Below, in pieces: positions 28,465 to 37,056 of a stretch of DNA of 64,000 bases; position 1 is the stretch's first letter, and every line of letters starts with the position of its first letter. Under the pieces are notes generated by a model that saw only the letters and a program-made list of their open reading frames with translations, was not told the DNA's origin and made no database searches. The translations under genes were made by a program, and so were the position numbers. Source of the DNA: Comamonas terrae (lineage in GTDB: Bacteria; Pseudomonadota; Gammaproteobacteria; Burkholderiales; Burkholderiaceae_C); NCBI RefSeq assembly GCF_001544075.1, contig NZ_BCNT01000009.1, forward strand, positions 1 to 64,000. Reading direction: 5' to 3'.

Positions 28465-31400
28465 TCAGCTGTGGGCCGGCGCGTCGGCCGAAGTCGAAGC
28501 CTTGAGCGGCTGGCCCAGGCTGCGCAGCACGTCGCGCACCATCTGCGCGCGGGCCTTGGGGTCTTCCAGGGCTTTTTCTATGCGCAGCTTCTCGTTGCCG
28601 GCCAGCTTGATGTGCCTGTTCTTCTGGATCAGCTGGATGATGTTCATCGGGTCGATGGGCGGCTGGGGCTTGAAGGTGATGTTGATCACGCCGGGCGCGG
28701 CATCCACCTTGACCACGCCATAGGGCTGGGACAGCACGCGCAGGCGGTGCACGTCGATCAGCGTCTGGGCCTGGGGCGGCAGCTTGCCGAAGCGGTCCAC
28801 GATTTCCTCCAGCAGCGTGTCGATCTGGTCCGCCGTCCTGGCCGTGGCCAGCTTCTTGTAGAAGGACAGGCGCAGGTGCACGTCGCCGCAGTAGTCGTTG
28901 GGCAGCAGGGCCGGGGCGTGCAGATTGATGTCGGTGGAGGCGGACAGCGGCGCCAGCAGGTCGGGCTCCTTGCCGGCCTTGAGGCTGCGCACGGCCTCGG
29001 ACAGCATCTCGTTGTAGAGCTGGAAGCCCACCTCCATCATGTTGCCGCTCTGGTTCTCGCCCAGCACCTCGCCGGCGCCGCGGATCTCCAGGTCGTGCAT
29101 GGCCAGGTAAAAGCCCGAGCCCAGTTCCTCCATCTGCTGGATGGCTTCCAGCCGCTGCTGGGCCTGCTTGGTCAGGCCGTCCAGGTCGGGCACCATCAGA
29201 TAGGCATAGGCCTGGTGGTGGCTGCGGCCCACGCGTCCGCGCAGCTGGTGCAGCTGGGCCAGGCCGAACTTGTCGGCACGGCTGATGAGGATGGTGTTGG
29301 CGCTGGGCACGTCGATGCCGGTCTCGATGATGGTCGAGCACAGCAGGATGTTGTAGCGCTGGGCCACGAAGTCGCGCATCACCTTTTCCAGCTCGCGCTC
29401 GGGCATCTGGCCGTGGGCCACGGCGATGCGGGCCTCGGGCAGGATTTCCTCGAGCTTTTGCTTGCGGTTCTCTATGGTCTCGACCTCGTTGTGCAGGAAG
29501 TAGACCTGGCCGCCGCGCTTGAGCTCGCGCAGCACGGCCTCGCGGATCACGCCCGTGCCTTCGTTGCGCACAAAGGTCTTGATGGCCAGGCGGCGCTGCG
29601 GCGCCGTGGCGATGACGGACAGGTCGCGCAGGCCTTCGAGCGCCATGCCCATGGTGCGCGGGATCGGCGTGGCCGTGAGCGTGAGCACGTCCACCTCGGC
29701 GCGCATGGCCTTCATGGCCTCCTTGTGGCGCACGCCGAAGCGGTGCTCCTCGTCGATGATGAGCAGGCCCAGGTTCTTGAACTGGGTGGACTCGGACAGC
29801 AGCTTGTGCGTGCCCACCACGATGTCCACCGTGCCTTCGGCAATGCCCTTGACGGCGGCCGAAATCTCCTTGCCCGAACGGAAGCGCGAGACCTCGGCCA
29901 CCTTGATCGGCCATTTGGAGAAACGGTCCACCAGGGTCTGGTAGTGCTGCTCGGCCAGCAGCGTGGTCGGAGCCAGGAAGGCCACCTGCTTGCCGCCCAT
30001 GGCCGCCACGAAGGCCGCGCGCAGCGCGACCTCGGTCTTGCCGAAGCCCACGTCGCCGCAGACCAGCCGGTCCATGGGCCGGGGGCTGATCATGTCCTGC
30101 ACCACGGCATGGATGGCCGCGCGCTGGTCGGCGGTCTCCTCGAAGCCGAAGTCGGCCACGAACTGCTCGTAGTCGGCTGCGGGAAAGCGGAAGGCATGGC
30201 CCTGGCGCGCGGCGCGGCGCGCGTAGATGTTGAGCAGCTCGGCGGCCGAGTCGCGCACCTGCTCGGCGGCCTTGCGCTTGGCCTTTTCCCACTGCGAGCC
30301 GCCCAGCTTGTGCAGCGGCGCATCCTCGGGCGAGACGCCGGTGTAGCGGCTGATGAGCTGCAGCTGGCTCACGGGCACGTAGAGCACGGCGTCGCTTGCG
30401 TACTCCAGGTGCAGGAACTCCTGCAGCGCGGGCGTGCCATCGGGGTTCTTCTGGCCCATGTCCATGTTGACGAGGCCGCGGTAGCGGCCTATGCCGTGGT
30501 CGGCATGGACCACGGGGTCGCCCACCTTCAGCTCGGACAGGTCCTTGATCAGCGCCTCCACGTCGCTGACCTGTTCCTGGCGGCGCCGGCGGCGGCCCGT
30601 GGGCGCGGTGGCGAACAGCTCGGTCTCGGTGACGAAGTCCAGGCCTTCCTCGACCCAGGCGAAGCCGTTCATCAGGCTGGAGGTGGCGATGCCGACCTTC
30701 TCCTGCGTATCGGCCTGGAACTCGGCCAGCGAGTCGAAGACCGGCGGATTCACGCCCGAGGCGCGGAAGAAGTCCAGCAGGCTTTCGCGCCGGCCGTCGG
30801 ATTCGGCCAGGAGCAAGACCCGGTGCGCGCTGGATGCTATATGTTTCTGCAGCCTGGCCAGCGGGTCCTCGGCGCCGCGCATGACCGACAGGTCCTCGAG
30901 TTTCTGGAAGAGGGCGCTGTCCTGCACGTCCTCGGCGCCCGGGCGCAGGGCGAGCTGGGCATGCTCCCTGGAGCGGGTGTAGAACTGCTCGGCCGTGAGG
31001 AACAGCGCCTCGGGCGGCAGGGCCGGGTGGTCGGGGTCGCCCTGCACCAGGCGGTAGCGGTCCCTGGTATCCTGCCAGAAGCGCTGGAAGGCCGGTTCCA
31101 GCTCGCCGTGCAGCACCACGGTGGCGTCATCGCCCAGGTAGTCGAATACGGTGGCGGTCTCGTCGAAGAACAGCGGCAGGTAGTACTCGATGCCGGCCGT
31201 GGCAATGCCCTGGCCCATGTCCTTGTAGATGCGGCTGCGCGTGGGATCGCCCTCGAGCAGCTCGCGCCAGCGGCTGCGGAACTTGGCGCGCGCCTCCTCG
31301 TCCATGGGGAATTCGCGCCCCGGCAGCAGGCGCACCTCGGGCACGGGGTAGAGGCTGCGCTGGGTGTCGGGATCGAAGGTGCGGATGGAGTCGATCTCGT

Positions 31401-31968
31401 CGTCGAACAGGTCCACGCGGTAGGGCTGGGGCGAGCCCATGGGGAACAGGTCGATCAGGCCGCCGCGCACCGCGTATTCGCCGTGGCTCACGACCTGGGA
31501 CACATGCTGGTAGCCGGCCAGCGTGAGCTGGGCGCGCAGCCGGGCCTCGTCGAGCTTCTGGCCGGTCTTGAACTCGAAGGTGTAGCCCGCCAGGAAGGAG
31601 GGCGGCGCCAGCCGGTACAGCGCCGTGGTGGCGGGCACGACGACCACGTCGGCGCCGTGCTCGCGGTCGCGCTGGTTGATGCGCCACAGCGTGGCCAGGC
31701 GTTCGCTGATCAGGTCCTGGTGCGGCGAGAAGCTGTCGTAGGGCAGGGTTTCCCAGTCGGGAAACAGCGCGCAGCGCAGCCCGGGCGCGAAAAAAGCCAT
31801 CTCGTCGATCAGCCGCTGGGCATCCGCGGCGTCGGCCGTCACGATGGCCGTGACCCGCCCGGCGGCTTTCTCGCGTTCGCCCAGGCGGGCCAGCAGCAGG
31901 GCGTCGGCGCTGCCGGTGGGGCGGGGCAGGGTGAAGCGTTTACCGGGAGTGAGCTTGGGCAGTTGCAT
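28465..31968 (-). CDS. mfd: Transcription-repair coupling factor
   Basis: A 1167-residue Mfd. It displaces RNA polymerase stalled at DNA lesions and recruits UvrA. Order: UvrB-like N-terminal domains (about 1-340), the CarD-like RNA-polymerase interaction domain (about 470-570, with KVGDPVVHADHGIGRYRGL), the RecG-like motor with Walker A GDVGFGKTEVALRAAF, the DEEH box (IIDEEHRFGVRH) and motif VI (HQLRGRVGRS), then the TRCF C-terminal autoinhibitory domain. Length is normal for the family. The start at 31968 (MQLPKLTPGK) is preferred over a second ATG seven codons upstream. It is divergent from ispD. A GC hairpin lies in the leader at 32003-32024. Confidence 0.97.
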   Translation of the reverse strand: MQLPKLTPGKRFTLPRPTGSADALLLARLGEREKAAGRVTAIVTADAADAQRLIDEMAFFAPGLRCALFPDWETLPYDSFSPHQDLISERLATLWRINQRDREHGADVVVVPATTALYRLAPPSFLAGYTFEFKTGQKLDEARLRAQLTLAGYQHVSQVVSHGEYAVRGGLIDLFPMGSPQPYRVDLFDDEIDSIRTFDPDTQRSLYPVPEVRLLPGREFPMDEEARAKFRSRWRELLEGDPTRSRIYKDMGQGIATAGIEYYLPLFFDETATVFDYLGDDATVVLHGELEPAFQRFWQDTRDRYRLVQGDPDHPALPPEALFLTAEQFYTRSREHAQLALRPGAEDVQDSALFQKLEDLSVMRGAEDPLARLQKHIASSAHRVLLLAESDGRRESLLDFFRASGVNPPVFDSLAEFQADTQEKVGIATSSLMNGFAWVEEGLDFVTETELFATAPTGRRRRRQEQVSDVEALIKDLSELKVGDPVVHADHGIGRYRGLVNMDMGQKNPDGTPALQEFLHLEYASDAVLYVPVSQLQLISRYTGVSPEDAPLHKLGGSQWEKAKRKAAEQVRDSAAELLNIYARRAARQGHAFRFPAADYEQFVADFGFEETADQRAAIHAVVQDMISPRPMDRLVCGDVGFGKTEVALRAAFVAAMGGKQVAFLAPTTLLAEQHYQTLVDRFSKWPIKVAEVSRFRSGKEISAAVKGIAEGTVDIVVGTHKLLSESTQFKNLGLLIIDEEHRFGVRHKEAMKAMRAEVDVLTLTATPIPRTMGMALEGLRDLSVIATAPQRRLAIKTFVRNEGTGVIREAVLRELKRGGQVYFLHNEVETIENRKQKLEEILPEARIAVAHGQMPERELEKVMRDFVAQRYNILLCSTIIETGIDVPSANTILISRADKFGLAQLHQLRGRVGRSHHQAYAYLMVPDLDGLTKQAQQRLEAIQQMEELGSGFYLAMHDLEIRGAGEVLGENQSGNMMEVGFQLYNEMLSEAVRSLKAGKEPDLLAPLSASTDINLHAPALLPNDYCGDVHLRLSFYKKLATARTADQIDTLLEEIVDRFGKLPPQAQTLIDVHRLRVLSQPYGVVKVDAAPGVINITFKPQPPIDPMNIIQLIQKNRHIKLAGNEKLRIEKALEDPKARAQMVRDVLRSLGQPLKASTSADAPAHS

Positions 31969-32002
31969 GTTCGGATGAAGGCGCGGCAAGGTAACGACAA
32001 AA

Positions 32003-32024
32003 CCCCTCGGCGCAGGCAGAGGGG
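32003..32024 (-). terminator. Terminator-like hairpin in the mfd leader
   Basis: CCCCTC (32003-32008) and GAGGGG (32019-32024) pair around a 10-base loop. On the minus strand the stem is followed by TTTTG, the look of an intrinsic terminator, yet it lies about 35 bases ahead of the mfd start. It may stop antisense transcription from ispD or attenuate mfd. Confidence 0.45.
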
Positions 32025-32068
32025 ATGCGCCACATTCTACGCAGCCGTCTTTTGCGCATGGCAGACCC

Positions 32069-32074
32069 TAGAAT
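32069..32074 (+). promoter_or_regulatory. Likely -10 box of ispD, almost touching the start codon
   Basis: TAGAAT (32069-32074) is a good -10 hexamer. The start codon of ispD is at 32083, only eight bases further, and no ribosome site precedes it. No good -35 box is seen. Confidence 0.35.
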
Positions 32075-32082
32075 TCGCTCCT

Positions 32083-32892
32083 ATGACAGAGATGCAAGCG
32101 ACAGCCCCGCGCCCGGTACGTTTATGGGCCCTGATTCCCTGCGCCGGCACGGGCACGCGGGCCGTGGCGGCCGGCGCGCTGGCGCCGGAGCTGCCCAAGC
32201 AGTACCAGCCGGTGGCCGGCCAGCCCATGGTCATGCACACGCTGGCGGCCTTTGCCGCGGTCGCGCGTATCCATCACACCCTGCTGGTGATTGCTCCGGG
32301 CGACGGCTTCTGGAACGGCCGCGCGCCGGCTGCCCGCTGTTCGGTGGCGGCGTGCGGCGGCGCAAGCCGCGCGCAGACCGTGGGCAACGGCCTGCAGGCT
32401 CTGCTCGGGCGGGGCGCGAGCCCGCAGGACTGGGTGCTGGTGCACGATGCGGCGCGCTGCCTGGTGACGCCGCAGCTCATCGACGCACTGATCGATGCCT
32501 GCGAGCACGATGCCGTGGGCGGGCTGCTGGCCCACAAGCTGCCCGACACCCTCAAGACCGCGACCGTCGGGCCCGGCGGCGTGCGCGTGGCCGAGACCGT
32601 GGACCGCAGCGACAAATGGCTGGCGCAGACGCCGCAGATGTTCCGCATCGGCCCGCTGCAGCAGGCCCTGCACCAGGCCGGCGCCGAAGTGACCGACGAG
32701 GCCAGCGCCATGGAGGCTGCGGGCCTGCATCCGCGCCTGGTGCCGGGCGGGGCGCAGAATTTCAAGGTCACCTATCCCGACGATTTCGCGCTCGCCGCGG
32801 CCGTGCTGTCCCAGCGCCAGAACCAGGCCACTCTGGCGCGCTACAAGGGGCTGCGCGACCAGCCCCAGCCCCAGGGCAATCCATTTTTCTGA
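32083..32892 (+). CDS. ispD: 2-C-methyl-D-erythritol 4-phosphate cytidylyltransferase
   Basis: A 269-residue enzyme of the MEP isoprenoid pathway that joins CTP to methylerythritol phosphate. Nucleotide-binding start WALIPCAGTGTRA, the Lys of LPKQYQPV, LVHDAARCLV, LAQTPQMFR and TDEASAMEAAG are all in place. The P-C-A-G-T-G form replaces the P-A-A-G of E. coli, which I regard as normal in Burkholderiales. About seven extra residues stand between the glycine loop and PKQY. The ispF gene follows after 123 bases that hold a palindromic element. The two proteins act two steps apart in the pathway. Start codon lies close to a -10-like box, so the mRNA may be leaderless. Confidence 0.95.
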   Translation: MTEMQATAPRPVRLWALIPCAGTGTRAVAAGALAPELPKQYQPVAGQPMVMHTLAAFAAVARIHHTLLVIAPGDGFWNGRAPAARCSVAACGGASRAQTVGNGLQALLGRGASPQDWVLVHDAARCLVTPQLIDALIDACEHDAVGGLLAHKLPDTLKTATVGPGGVRVAETVDRSDKWLAQTPQMFRIGPLQQALHQAGAEVTDEASAMEAAGLHPRLVPGGAQNFKVTYPDDFALAAAVLSQRQNQATLARYKGLRDQPQPQGNPFF

Positions 32893-32902
32893 TCGAAAAA
32901 GG

Positions 32903-32978
32903 AGCTGCCGGCGCTTGCGGTGCGTGGTTTTCAGATGGAAAACCATCTGAAAGCATTGAATAGCAGGCGCTGACAGCT
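32903..32978. repeat. Palindromic intergenic element with inner hairpin (copy 1)
   Basis: An outer stem is made by AGCTGCCGGCGCTT (32903-32916) and AGGCGCTGACAGCT (32965-32978), 11 of 14 positions paired. Inside it is a perfect 10-bp hairpin, TTTCAGATGG (32929-32938), loop AAAA, CCATCTGAAA (32943-32952). It resembles the element at 37636-37713 in plan and in outer-arm sequence. Located between ispD and ispF. Confidence 0.6.
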
Positions 32979-33015
32979 ACTTTGATTGATGGTCAACACG
33001 TTCCAAGGATTTGAG

Positions 33016-33495
33016 ATGAATTTTCGTATTGGTGAAGGCTGGGATGTGCACGCGCTGGTGCCGGGCCGCAAGCTGATCCTGGGCGGCATCGAGGTGCCGC
33101 ATACCCTGGGCCTGCTCGGCCATTCGGATGCCGACGTGCTGCTGCACGCCATCACCGACGCCTTGCTGGGCGCCGCGGCGCTGGGCGACATCGGCCGCCA
33201 TTTCCCCGATACCGATGCGCAGTTCAAGGGCGCCGATTCCGTGGCGCTGCTGGCCGAGGCCGCCCGCCGCGTGCGCGCCACGGGGCTGGAGATCGGCAAT
33301 ATCGACAGCACCATCGTGGCCCAGGCGCCCAAGCTGGCGCCGCATATCGACGCCATGCGCACTCGCATCGCCCAGGCCCTGGGGCTGGACGCGGGCCAGG
33401 TCAACGTCAAGGCCAAGACGGCCGAGAAAATGGGCCCGGTGGGCCAGCAGCAGGCCATGGAAGCGCGTGCCGTAGCCCTGCTGTACAAGGCCTGA
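33016..33495 (+). CDS. ispF: 2-C-methyl-D-erythritol 2,4-cyclodiphosphate synthase
   Basis: A 159-residue trimeric enzyme of the MEP pathway that forms the cyclic diphosphate with loss of CMP. Metal ligands are in GWDVHAL (Asp10, His12) and in [20 protein letters not shown]. The signature [20 protein letters not shown] and the end [19 protein letters not shown] are typical. The start at 33016 has AAGGA ahead; an upstream in-frame ATG at 32989 is less likely. Probably in one transcription unit with ispD. Confidence 0.97.
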
Positions 33496-33799
33496 AAAGC
33501 TTTCACGACGCGTTTCCGATCTCCGCGCGCCCCGACAGCGGCTTTGCGGGAGGGGCGCCCAGGCGCAGCACCGCAGCAACAGCCACGCTATCGCGAGCAT
33601 TGGCGCGGCCGGCTAGGCAACGCCGCAGGCCGCCCATCATCCGGGCGGCCGCCAAGCCACCGCCCCGCAGGGCTGGAGCGCCATCGGGCGATGTCTTCGC
33701 ACTGTCTCTTGCCTGCCCCCGGTGCAAGCTGCGAACCGTTGCTTTGAATTCATCCCGATGGCGCACCAGCGCAGCTGCGTAGAGACCGCAAACACGTTC
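33496..33799. other. Intergenic region with a GC hairpin, no gene supported
   Basis: Between the convergent ispF and methyltransferase genes. A strong stem, GGCCGCCC (33628-33635) and GGGCGGCC (33643-33650) around a 7-base loop, is the only clear structure. It lacks a T-run. A short minus-strand frame (33503-33766) has no ribosome site or recognisable family, so I do not call it. Confidence 0.4.
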
Positions 33800-34756
33800 T
33801 CAGGCCTGGGATAGCGCAGGCGCGCGGTAGACCAGCACCTTGAGGCTGCGCTCCTCGTCCACATCGGCAAACACGGGCGGATTGGCCACGCGCTCCACCC
33901 ATTGCAGCTCGGGTGCGAACTCCTGCATCTGGGCTGTGAGAAACCGGGTATCGAGTTCGGGCGCGTTCAGGCACAGCAGCACCTGGCCTTCGGGCAGCAG
34001 TAGGTCGGGCAGGCGGCGCATCAGGCGGGCGTAGTCCTTGGTCGCCACGAAGCTGCCCTTCTGGTAGCTCGGAGGGTCCACGATGATGAGGTCGTAGGGG
34101 CCGCCGCGCGTGATCTTGCCCCAGCTGCTGAAGATGTCGTGGGCCGCAAAGCTGGCGCCGTTCTTGACGCCGTTGAGCTGGTGGTTCTGCTGGCCGATGG
34201 CCAGGGCGCCCTTGCTCATGTCCATGTTGAGCACCTGGCCCGCGCCCGCCAGCCGGGCCACGACGGAAAAGGCGCAGGTATAGGCAAAGAGGTTGAGCAC
34301 CTTCATGCGCGCGGGGCGCGGATGGGCCTGCACCTGCCGGCGCACCCATTCGCGGCCGGCCGCCATGTCCAGGAACAGGCCGTGGTTCTGCCCGCGTGCC
34401 AGATGCACCAGATAGCGGGCGCCGTTTTCCGTGACCACATGGGGTTCGGGCACGGCGCCGGCCATGATGCGGATGTCGAACTTGCCGCCCACTTCGCGCG
34501 TCTGCAGCAGCCAGTTCAGCGGCTGGGCATCGGAGGCGATCCGGGCCCAGCGCGCGCGCAGGGCCTGGTCGACGGTGGCGACCGCCTGCTCGGCCAGCGG
34601 CTCGAAGCTGGTGAGCACGATGACCGGCGGGTAGGCATCCAGCGATAGCTGCTCGCAGCCCGGATGCCGGCCGCCACGCCCATGGAAGATGCGCCGGGCA
34701 TCCGTGGGGTAGGGCATGGCGGCGATGGCATCGAGCAGGGGCTGCAGTGCTTGCAT
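33800..34756 (-). CDS. Class I SAM-dependent methyltransferase, RlmI/RlmK-like
   Basis: A 318-residue methyltransferase related to the 23S rRNA cytosine/guanine methyltransferases RlmI and RlmK. The SAM-binding motif I is MKVLNLFAYTCAFSVVARLAG and the catalytic DPPSYQKGSF stands later (VDPPSYQK), with LLLPEGQVLLCLNAPELD following. An N-terminal PUA domain, as in RlmI, is not evident. The start at 34756 is the best of several; the frame is open for another 30 residues without family resemblance, and no start has a good ribosome site. Target nucleotide not assignable. Confidence 0.82.
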   Translation of the reverse strand: MQALQPLLDAIAAMPYPTDARRIFHGRGGRHPGCEQLSLDAYPPVIVLTSFEPLAEQAVATVDQALRARWARIASDAQPLNWLLQTREVGGKFDIRIMAGAVPEPHVVTENGARYLVHLARGQNHGLFLDMAAGREWVRRQVQAHPRPARMKVLNLFAYTCAFSVVARLAGAGQVLNMDMSKGALAIGQQNHQLNGVKNGASFAAHDIFSSWGKITRGGPYDLIIVDPPSYQKGSFVATKDYARLMRRLPDLLLPEGQVLLCLNAPELDTRFLTAQMQEFAPELQWVERVANPPVFADVDEERSLKVLVYRAPALSQA

Positions 34757-34860
34757 GGAAATACGGCTCTGGCGGTTCTGGTGAAAGCCGCCAAGTGTAT
34801 GTCCGTGCAATGCCCTCCAAACGGGCGCGGTCCGGACCGCAGGCATCAGGCTGGGACCTG

Positions 34861-34925
34861 GACGGGCCGCGCCGCCGCGCAGCGCGGAGGTCGTCCCCCT
34901 TGGGAGAAGGGCGCGAAGCGCCTCA
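34861..34925 (-). repeat. Stop-codon-linked intergenic element, copy A
   Basis: Starting with the TGA of the 101-residue protein gene, the minus strand reads TGAGGCGCTTCGCGCCCTTC, then AAGGGGGACGAC, then GC-rich arms. Copies B, C and D of the same design start at the stops at 38823, 39874 and 43661. Confidence 0.6.
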
Positions 34926-35228
34926 GGGCGCCACCTTCCTCACTTCGAAGAAGCAGGACTCGGTGCCGCCGATTCCCTGCAGCCCGGCTTCGGCTGCGGC
35001 GCGGGCAGCCTTCATCCAGCGCGTGAAGACCTGCTTGGCTTCCTCGGTGATTTCCTCCGGCGGCGTGTCCTCCAGCCTTTGCACGAGAGACAGGGCTTGT
35101 GTCACTTCGGCCTCGCCACCGAACTGGCGGGCCAGCACGCGGGCATAGCGGGCTTCGGCCTGCTGGCGCTGCGGCTCGGGCAGCTCGGGGTAGTCGCAAA
35201 GCGTGACGGTGAAAATGGCTTCTTGCAT
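34923..35228 (-). CDS. Conserved hypothetical protein, 101 residues, next to a LexA-like box
   Basis: A small soluble protein (start MQEAIFTVTLCDYPELPEPQ, end CFFEVRKVAP) of mixed alpha/beta character, rich in Ala, Glu and Gln. No signal peptide, membrane span or known motif. The start at 35228 is supported by AAGGAC nine bases ahead. It is divergent from ogt; the shared region holds a LexA-like box 25 bases ahead of this start and an 18-copy hexamer tract. Its stop codon is the first codon of a dispersed element (copy A). I do not recognise it. If the LexA-like box is real, a DNA-damage role is possible. Confidence 0.7.
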   Translation of the reverse strand: MQEAIFTVTLCDYPELPEPQRQQAEARYARVLARQFGGEAEVTQALSLVQRLEDTPPEEITEEAKQVFTRWMKAARAAAEAGLQGIGGTESCFFEVRKVAP

Positions 35229-35252
35229 GTCCTTGGGTTCACTGTGTTGAGA

Positions 35253-35268
35253 CTGTGTAAATATACAG
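35253..35268. promoter_or_regulatory. LexA (SOS) box-like operator
   Basis: CTGTGTAAATATACAG (35253-35268) fits the gamma/betaproteobacterial LexA pattern CTGT-N8-ACAG exactly, with an AT-rich core. The core could supply -10 hexamers on either strand (TATATT on minus, TGTAAA on plus), the usual overlap of an SOS box with a promoter. It is 25 bases ahead of the 101-residue protein gene and 167 ahead of ogt. Confidence 0.6.
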
Positions 35269-35313
35269 CAAACAACTGTTGTTGCATCCAGTGTTTTTGC
35301 CGTGGCATGCTTT

Positions 35314-35421
35314 CCACCTCCACCTCCACCTCCACCTCCACCTCCACCTCCACCTCCACCTCCACCTCCACCTCCACCTCCACCTCCACCTCCACCTCCA
35401 CCTCCACCTCCACCTCCACCT
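35314..35421. repeat. (CCACCT)18 hexanucleotide tandem repeat
   Basis: Eighteen perfect copies of CCACCT, 108 bases without a mismatch, end 13 bases before the ogt ATG. All six frames are open through it. In the ogt frame it reads (His-Leu)n, in the others Thr-Ser or Pro; on the minus strand Gly, Trp-Arg or Glu-Val. One strand is purely A/G except for T in each unit. A perfect array of this length is prone to copy-number change by strand slippage; because the unit is six bases the frame would be kept. Confidence 0.97.
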
Positions 35422-35434
35422 GCTGTTGCTGCCC

Positions 35435-36163
35435 ATGTCCGAGCCCTCGCTTTTTCCCGTCTGCGGCCATGCCGTGTTTGCCACGCGCATCGGCCTGTGC
35501 GCGCTGGCCTGGCGCGATGCGCGCATTGCGGCCGTGCAGTTGCCCGAGGGCGCGGCCGAGCCGACGCGCGCCCGCCTGCTGCGGGGCTTGCGCCAGCGCT
35601 GGCCCGGCGTGGCGGACGGGCAATGGACGGCGGTGGATGATGCTGGCGCCTTGCCGTCCGTGGCCCTGCAAGCGGTGGCCGGCGTCCAGGTCCTGATGGC
35701 GGGCCATGGGGCGTTCCATGCACAGGAGCACGAGGCGGACGGCGTGCTGCCCGATCTGCGCTCTGCCTTCCAGCCTGCAGGTGCCGTGGGAGGTGGCGTG
35801 CCGGGCGTCGATACGCCGGGTGCCGGTGCGCTGCCCCTCCTGGGCGAAATCGAGCTGGACTGGCATGGCGTCTCCGACTTTCACCGCCAGGTCTATGAAT
35901 GGGCGCGTGGCATTGCGCCCGGGCGCACCGCCACCTATGGCGAGGTGGCCAGGGCGCTGGGCGATGCCGCCCTGGCGCGCGCCGTGGGCCAGGCACTGGG
36001 CGCCAATCCGTTCGCGCCCATCGTGCCCTGCCACCGGGTGCTGGCCGCCGGGGGGCGGCCGGGCGGTTTTTCGGGCGGCCAGGGGCCGTTGACCAAGCTG
36101 CGCATGCTGGAGCTGGAAGGGGCCGCCTGGGGCGGTTCGCGCTCGCTGTTCGAAGGCCTCTGA
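35435..36163 (+). CDS. ogt: Methylated-DNA--protein-cysteine methyltransferase
   Basis: A 242-residue suicide repair protein that takes alkyl groups from O6-alkylguanine. The C-terminal domain has the helix-turn-helix WARGIAPGRTATYGEVARAL and the acceptor IVPCHRVLAAGGRPGGFSGG (Cys199). The N-terminal part (about 1-130) is longer and less conserved than usual. The ATG at 35435 has no ribosome site: the bases ahead are the end of the CCACCT tract. The frame is open through the tract, so a longer form starting at a TTG or GTG (35279-35291) with a (His-Leu)18 leader cannot be excluded. A LexA-like box lies upstream. Confidence 0.92.
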   Translation: MSEPSLFPVCGHAVFATRIGLCALAWRDARIAAVQLPEGAAEPTRARLLRGLRQRWPGVADGQWTAVDDAGALPSVALQAVAGVQVLMAGHGAFHAQEHEADGVLPDLRSAFQPAGAVGGGVPGVDTPGAGALPLLGEIELDWHGVSDFHRQVYEWARGIAPGRTATYGEVARALGDAALARAVGQALGANPFAPIVPCHRVLAAGGRPGGFSGGQGPLTKLRMLELEGAAWGGSRSLFEGL

Positions 36164-36264
36164 AGAGAGGGCGCCCGGCTCGACACGCAGGTGACAACGC
36201 GGCGCATGCGCCGCCTGCAAAATGGCCGGCAGATTTTTTGCATGGAATCCAAGGAGACAAGCGC

Positions 36265-37056
36265 ATGACACGCAAGGTGCAGCAACTTTTTGATCTGACG
36301 GGCAAGACCGCCTTGGTGACCGGCGGCTCGCGCGGCCTGGGCCTGCAGATGGCCCATGCCCTGGGCGAGGTCGGGGCCCGCATTCTGCTGACGTCGCGCA
36401 AGGCGGCCGATCTGCAGGAGGCGGCGGCCGAGCTCAAGGCCGCGGGCATCGAGGCCGACTGGATCGCGGCCGACTGCGCCGACGAGGCCGACATCGCGCG
36501 CCTGGCCAAGGAGGCCGTGCAGCGCCTGGGCCATGTGGACATCCTGGTCAACAACGCGGGCGCCAGCTGGGGCGCGCCGGCCGAAGACCATCCGACGGCG
36601 GCCTGGGACAAGGTGATGAACCTCAATGTGCGCGGCTACTTCCTGCTGAGCCAGCAGATCGCGCGGCTGAGCATGATCCCGCGCGGCAGCGGCCGCATCA
36701 TCAATCTGGCCTCCATCGCGGCGCTGGGCGGCAATCCCGTCGGCATGAAGACCATTGCCTACAACACCTCCAAGGGGGCCGTGCTCAACTTCACGCGGGC
36801 GCTGGCCGGCGAGTGGGGCGTGCACGGCATCACCGTCAACGCGATCTGCCCGGGCTTCTTCAAGACCAAGATGGCGGCCGTGCTGATCGAGACCCTGGGC
36901 GAGGACGAGATGAAGTCGCATGCGCCGCTGCGCCGCCTGGGCGACGACGAGGATCTCAAGGGCATCACGCTGCTGTACGCCAGCGACGCGGGCAAGCACA
37001 TCACGGGCCAGTGGATGGCCGTCGACGGCGGCGTGAGCGCCCTGGTCGGCGGCTGA
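36265..37056 (+). CDS. Short-chain dehydrogenase/reductase
   Basis: A 263-residue classical SDR. The NAD(P)-binding start is TALVTGGSRGLGLQ (Gly-rich loop at about 20-26), then NNAG (ILVNNAGASWG), catalytic Ser in NLASIAAL, and the Tyr-Lys pair in YNTSKGA. The end GQWMAVDGGVSALVGG is the usual SDR C-terminus. TSR after the second strand suggests NADP(H). The start at 36265 follows AAGGAGACAAGCGC. First of four CoA or carbonyl metabolism genes in the same direction (36265-39876). Substrate unknown; an acyl-ACP/CoA or gluconate-type substrate would fit. Confidence 0.93.
   Translation: MTRKVQQLFDLTGKTALVTGGSRGLGLQMAHALGEVGARILLTSRKAADLQEAAAELKAAGIEADWIAADCADEADIARLAKEAVQRLGHVDILVNNAGASWGAPAEDHPTAAWDKVMNLNVRGYFLLSQQIARLSMIPRGSGRIINLASIAALGGNPVGMKTIAYNTSKGAVLNFTRALAGEWGVHGITVNAICPGFFKTKMAAVLIETLGEDEMKSHAPLRRLGDDEDLKGITLLYASDAGKHITGQWMAVDGGVSALVGG

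Follow-up and report, generated by a model that had tools for sequence, protein, structure and literature searches.

Short tandem repeats are, on average, not enriched in bacterial genomes, and those that occur are enriched at indels, according to the available part of PMC12699852; only three hexanucleotide repeats were counted in E. coli K12 in the corresponding part of PMC7015867. The closest described relatives of the array reported here are the VNTR loci of Burkholderia pseudomallei, a member of the same order, which are used here as described in the available text of PMC1853098. These MLVA loci have repeat units mostly of 6-9 bp, are mostly intergenic and change in repeat number, with mutation rates of 5.3e-5 to 1.7e-4 per generation (one table row gives 2.3e-4), and several hundred arrays are present per genome, many of them duplicated. 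A second set of comparable systems is formed by contingency loci of the spacing type, namely the nadA TAAA, porA poly-G and hifA/hifB TA repeats (PMC3899988) and the hmw1a/hmw2a heptamer (PMC2651432). In the portions of these two sources at hand, the repeat lies near regulatory elements before the gene, its length can set expression, and the genes that change in expression specify surface structures of host-associated bacteria. The LexA/SOS operator of Betaproteobacteria is given as CTGT-N8-ACAG in the available part of PMC6595937.

The window, by which we mean the whole 64-kb stretch of DNA analysed, taken from a bacterium of the Comamonas group, contains a hexanucleotide array that resembles the first group in its unit and intergenic position and the second in lying before a gene, where its length could set expression. 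The elements of this locus, with the basis on which each was placed, are as follows.

34923 to 35228, minus strand: P0002, a divergent gene of 101 aa that shares the LexA-type boxes with ogt (orthologue conservation)
35238 to 35267, plus strand: TTCACT-18-TATACA, the best promoter-like site toward ogt (predicted, crude score 7.0)
35253 to 35268, no strand assigned: LexA-type box 1, CTGTGTAAATATACAG (CTGT-N8-ACAG match, conservation)
35276 to 35291, no strand assigned: LexA-type box 2, imperfect, CTGTTGTTGCATCCAG, 23 bp after box 1 (conserved spacing)
35314 to 35421, plus strand: perfect tandem array (CCACCT)18 (direct match, Tandem Repeats Finder, chance comparisons)
35422 to 35434, plus strand: 13-base spacer GCTGTTGCTGCCC from array to ATG (sequence reading, crude promoter score)
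35435 to 36163, plus strand: ogt-like gene, 242 aa (PF01035, TIGR00589, PDB alignments)

An earlier note on this DNA had described a perfect 18-copy CCACCT tract placed between a LexA-like box and the ogt start and ending 13 bases before the ATG, and all of this was confirmed. The array is exact over 108 of 108 bases, with the copy number read from a 40-contig draft assembly alone, and the ogt ATG occupies 35435-35437. T35313 is in register and extends the perfect period-6 run to 109 bases; Tandem Repeats Finder reports 35313-35421 as period 6, 18.2 copies and 100% matches with a score of 218, which ranks first among 17 rows for the window and is followed by 76. On the ogt sense strand the array is free of G and rich in C, and the opposite strand consists of GGAGGT repeats. 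A perfect array of this length is far beyond chance, since 200 mononucleotide shuffles of the window produced perfect period-6 runs of 18 bases at most. Real sequence gave similar limits: other perfect period-6 runs reached 19 bases at most in a 400-kb sample of the window genome (about 8.5% of 4.72 Mb), and the longest in 754 kb from 80 relatives' loci was also 19 bases. When the whole 4.72-Mb genome was searched with a three-copy pattern, 16 overlapping matches were found, every one at the array; the reversed-pattern control is uninformative for CCACCT, whose reversed unit is a rotation of itself. In contrast to B. pseudomallei with its several hundred arrays, the 400-kb sample held no second perfect hexamer array of four or more copies. 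The array was not mentioned among the literature matches listed, and viral contigs scanned with its left flank gave 0 matches.

The gene downstream encodes a protein with the 6-O-methylguanine-DNA methyltransferase DNA-binding domain (PF01035, E 2.9e-26) that also scores over the TIGR00589 cut-off. It is full-length and intact, and its VPCHRV, which contains the PCHRV active-site motif with the PCHR cysteine, is aligned in alignments to the solved alkyltransferases 4wxc and 4bhb. Methyltransf_1N was not found in this protein at E 0.001. The start codon at 35435 is supported by the relatives, since in 10 of 33 the frame is closed by a stop codon that begins 9-12 bases ahead of the ATG (this count, like the spacing and TAnACT counts over 25 relatives given below, includes L006, whose start was taken at an internal ATG). 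The window genome encodes two further alkyltransferase homologues. One (L201 1498-2478, minus strand) is a 326-aa protein with an AraC-type HTH and an alkyltransferase domain, in which no N-terminal Ada zinc domain was matched at E 0.001, and the other (L202 1153-1737, minus strand) is a 194-aa Ogt with both MGMT domains. What the earlier note called a mutation-avoidance gene is thus one of three homologues, and an effect on its expression could be buffered.

Upstream of the array, box 1 is the only CTGT-N8-ACAG match in the 64-kb window, against 0.67 expected; because this count is not significant alone, the case for box 1 rests on conservation. Two boxes of the form CTG-N10-CAG precede ogt in 25 of the 33 relatives from the same genus whose orthologue is full-length, spaced 21-23 bp apart in all 25 relatives with the arrangement, and box 1 is perfect in the window but not always in the relatives. 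Searched with a stricter form of box 1, the window genome gave 5 places and the reversed control 0; two of the five precede genes that we take to be umuDC-like and SRAP-like. As with the betaproteobacterial LexA/SOS operator, the motif lies before ogt in most of the genus set and before umuDC-like and SRAP-like genes of the same genome. Unlike that operator, the boxes here form a pair 23 bp apart between divergent genes, and the lexA and recA genes present in the window genome are each preceded by imperfect tandem boxes only, with no perfect CTGT-N8-ACAG at either locus.

P0002, on the other side of the boxes, has an orthologue at the same place and on the same strand in 25 of the 33 relatives. 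Its start lies 24 bases from the boxes, a distance shared by 13 of the 25 and ranging from 22 to 31 in the rest. No Pfam or NCBIfam match was found at E 0.001 and no PHROGs match at E 0.01; one analysis of its orthologues took in 11 of the 25. The AlphaFold model (pLDDT 89.2) has a beta-helix-helix-helix-beta arrangement, for which a structure search returned no PDB match at E 0.001 or better and, as the best match in a viral library, an uncharacterised phage protein (E 3.6e-3, TM 0.65/0.74). From its position and conservation, P0002 is a candidate new SOS gene for an uncharacterised protein. Read by eye, box 1 also overlaps TATATT, a -10-like sequence for P0002. Further along the minus strand, the gene at 28465-31989, about 3 kb from P0002/ogt, is presumably mfd; nearest relatives match a 3,001-base fragment of it at near-full coverage and 92%. 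With this label, repair genes lie close together within 28465-36163, mfd first and then P0002/ogt.

The comparison with relatives suggests that the surroundings of the array are old and that the array itself is new. An ogt protein search of 53 genus genomes, the window genome included, found a full-length orthologue in 34, and in 26 of these (25 of the 33 relatives) the P0002-like divergent gene, the two LexA-type boxes and ogt occur together; the remaining eight loci (L019-L024, L151 and L152) have no P0002 relative at that place. No array was found before ogt in 113 relatives' loci, 105 of them distinct since 8 named loci repeat genus loci, within up to 1,000 bases upstream (the available sequence falls short of 1,000 bases in 8 of the 113 and of 400 in 3 of those 8). 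The scan was run over 1,000 bases because some loci match only the C-terminal part and 400 bases stop short of the intergenic region. The longest perfect repeat in the 105 distinct loci was 19 bases, in collections that have one genome per species and may leave out the window genome's own and very near records. When five chosen relatives are aligned with the window, the match is good through box 2 and is lost at the array, and the distance from box 2 to the ATG, 143 bases in the window or 35 without the array, compares with 49-103 in the 25 relatives. Elsewhere in relatives' flanks, perfect arrays of a 9-base unit (31 bases, L088 3538) and an 11-base unit (43 bases, L101 3195) were seen.

To place the array relative to transcription, promoter-like sites were scored with a crude sigma-70 table. 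The upstream site TTCACT-18-TATACA overlaps box 1, with its -10 inside the box, and scores 7.0, versus a best score of 0.9 inside or after the array; 18 of the 33 relatives were scored in the same way, and no single site stands out among them. A stock sigma-70 consensus scan of 34900-36300 returned 0 sites. Because no promoter-like site was found inside or after the array with the crude score, the array is probably transcribed as a G-free, C-rich and unstructured 5' leader of ogt, and its RNA has a predicted minimum free energy of 0.0 kcal/mol. It is also probably non-coding. Two observations count against a leader. The window does not have the TAnACT hexamer of 16 of 25 relatives, and if that hexamer is a real promoter, ogt may be barely expressed. 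In addition, the frame into ogt is open, which makes an N-terminal extension conceivable, and three other arrays of the same unit are coding.

Taken together, we consider it likely that the array is a VNTR-type hexanucleotide microsatellite, lineage-specific and of recent expansion, that lies in the 5' leader of ogt, an SOS-box-associated gene. The microsatellite part of this reading is drawn from an array that is exact, unique in the genome and absent before ogt in relatives, and the leader part from the upstream promoter-like score (7.0 vs 0.9) and the supported Ogt start. The array would have grown through slippage during replication, in the poorly conserved sequence from box 2 to the start codon, and by analogy it may still change in length. 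The earlier note's proposal of slippage is upheld in this sense, in that the array is a strong candidate by analogy with the B. pseudomallei VNTR loci. If transcription of ogt begins in the LexA-box region and runs on through the array, the leader gains 6 unstructured, G-free bases with every copy. A change in length would affect neither the operators nor P0002 nor the Ogt protein, and its effect on ogt output could only be modest. The array is ordinary in kind and unusual in length and position.

An alternative that we regard as rather unlikely is that the array overwrote an ogt-proximal promoter, so that ogt would be expressed weakly or would depend on the SOS-box region farther upstream. 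A TAnACT hexamer stands 6-8 bases before the ATG in 16 of the 25 relatives with the arrangement and is absent from the window, and its position in these relatives would suit a possible leaderless promoter; the other 9 relatives, however, also do without it. Among the 13 TAnACT relatives that were scored, TTGACT-17-TTAACT or -TAAGCT, overlapping the boxes, is the top site in 6, and TAGACT beside the ATG ranks in the top four in 5. From the array to the ATG, the window has neither a Shine-Dalgarno-like motif nor a -10-like site by the crude score, and the 16 TAnACT relatives likewise have no Shine-Dalgarno-like motif among the matches listed. The terminal branch of the window Ogt is the longest of 34 (0.50), which counts in favour of this alternative. 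Ogt-specific decay is not clear, because this branch touches the midpoint root and the P0002 branch is also longish (0.11, third of 26), and the protein remains intact at full length with its PCHRV kept. There are thus two readings: the array is part of a leader transcribed from the SOS-box region, or it displaced a proximal promoter. Under both, the effect of the array would fall on ogt and not on P0002, whose start is as far from the boxes as in 13 of 25 relatives.

A more specific version of the leader reading is that the transcribed array is a near-ideal rut site at which Rho terminates a fraction of the ogt transcripts, and a larger one once the array exceeds about 70-80 nt; we consider this unlikely, although it is the most specific mechanism that the anatomy of the locus suggests. 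Rho prefers unstructured, ribosome-free, C-rich and G-poor RNA of at least 70-80 nt, as stated in the available text of PMC6407284, and the array offers 108 nt of G-free, C-rich RNA folding to 0.0 kcal/mol, in what is probably an untranslated leader, in a genome that has a rho gene. As to freedom from ribosomes, the relatives support the Ogt start at 35435, yet the frames are open through the array. Among 924,766 78-nt segments taken from the two strands of 464 kb, the array has the highest C-minus-G (52 C, 0 G), while the best value in the other 41 sequence-strands is 34, elsewhere on the window plus strand it is 25, and near ogt in 24 relatives (L006 left out, as its start was taken at an internal ATG) it ranges from -3 to 18. 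Segments with three or fewer G occur at one other place besides the array, as 5 segments in L161. In the same part of PMC6407284, the C/G ratio does not correlate strongly with read drop and the largest drops occur at ratios below 2, so the extreme ratio of the array should not be over-read. Unlike in rut leaders, the composition of the array is dictated by its repeat unit and may be a by-product of it rather than selected; the array is a candidate rut site. It is quite doubtful that slippage in steps of 6 nt around a Rho footprint of about 78 nt would let copy number set SOS-induced read-through to ogt, which would give heritable and reversible cell-to-cell differences in alkylation repair while operator, P0002 and Ogt all stay the same.

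The earlier note had gone further and proposed a rheostat-like contingency locus. In the full form of this reading, variation in copy number is under selection and determines how strongly ogt is expressed, and thereby the level of mutation or alkylation sensitivity. We do not think that the array is a selected switch, and this proposal is improbable in our view. The array is perfect and long and sits between the LexA-type boxes and the ogt ATG, where a change in length can alter expression, and spacing-type loci such as nadA, porA and hifA/hifB on the one hand (PMC3899988, available part) and hmw1a/hmw2a on the other (PMC2651432, available part) establish that such systems exist. A contingency locus would be expected to be retained or to recur at orthologous loci, but 0 of the 113 relatives' loci (105 distinct) have a run over 19 bases before ogt. 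Unlike the known examples, this array precedes a repair gene and is present in none of the relatives examined. It is single in its genome and lineage-specific and stands beside a gene with two further homologues, so that we see no sign of its maintenance; the hexanucleotide repeats of H. influenzae likewise gave no evidence of phase-variable expression in the available part of PMC2651432. The array therefore fits the VNTR kind in its sequence features and fails the contingency kind on recurrence. Of the tuning routes that had been suggested, a change in leader length or promoter-to-start distance follows from the position of the array between an SOS-type operator and the ogt start, while an effect through the RNA structure of the array itself is unlikely because its fold is 0.0 kcal/mol. 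The argument that a hexamer keeps the reading frame is moot, as the array most likely lies outside the ogt frame, given the stops close before the ATG in relatives.

The same unit occurs elsewhere in coding sequence. A five-copy pattern was found in 2 of 53 genus genomes and a seven-copy pattern in 3 of 399 family genomes, the window genome included in each case, and the three other arrays so identified (G062 in the genus, G374 and G427 in the family) all lie in long ORFs in the poly-Gly frame. In G374, which belongs to another genus, a 102-base period-6 run of the CCACCT unit stands beside a 72-base run of a GGTCCA unit (L181 1400-1640), and towards the end of a 557-aa ORF the two read as poly-Gly followed by Pro-Gly. 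Shorter arrays form a poly-Gly linker after what we take to be a lipoprotein-like signal in G427 (L179 1497-1548) and a poly-Gly insert in a presumably CobW-like protein in G062 (L127 1501-1536). In the window, the His-Leu frame of the array is open for 58 codons upstream of ogt and the poly-Gly frame enters P0002 without a stop, being open for at least 120 codons; translation of the array, be it as His-Leu repeats added to Ogt or as poly-Gly in a longer P0002, is nevertheless very unlikely, as the frame upstream of P0002 is closed by an in-frame stop no more than 54 codons away in 23 of 25 relatives and after 104-105 codons in the remaining two, stops precede the ogt ATG in relatives as described above, the LexA boxes would fall inside the coding region, and no start with a good Shine-Dalgarno sequence was seen by eye upstream of the array.

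Several structural properties of the array were also considered. An RNA hairpin is ruled out by the fold of 0.0 kcal/mol. The mean score of the array in G4Hunter-type scoring is -1.33, the most negative 108-base value in the window, where the highest positive value is 0.94; a G-quadruplex on the GGAGGT strand is possible, and nothing ties it to function. Counted without overlaps, the sense RNA contains CACCUCC and the other strand GGAGGUG 9 times each, sequences with a likeness to the 16S rRNA end, and no partner was found for anti-Shine-Dalgarno mimicry by the array. Despite the mirror symmetry of the array, triplex DNA is not expected, because neither strand is a pure purine strand.

We therefore return to the young leader microsatellite as the likely reading, and its meaning for the organism depends on whether length matters. 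If array length tunes ogt, heritable differences in alkylation repair would exist among the cells of a single clone, and the array would offer a clean test, provided by nature, of whether Rho-dependent read-through can be set by a repeat. If length does not tune ogt, the array would still serve as a typing marker, and what would last is the conserved arrangement itself, in which ogt and the gene for a 101-aa protein form a candidate SOS-controlled pair in much of the genus.
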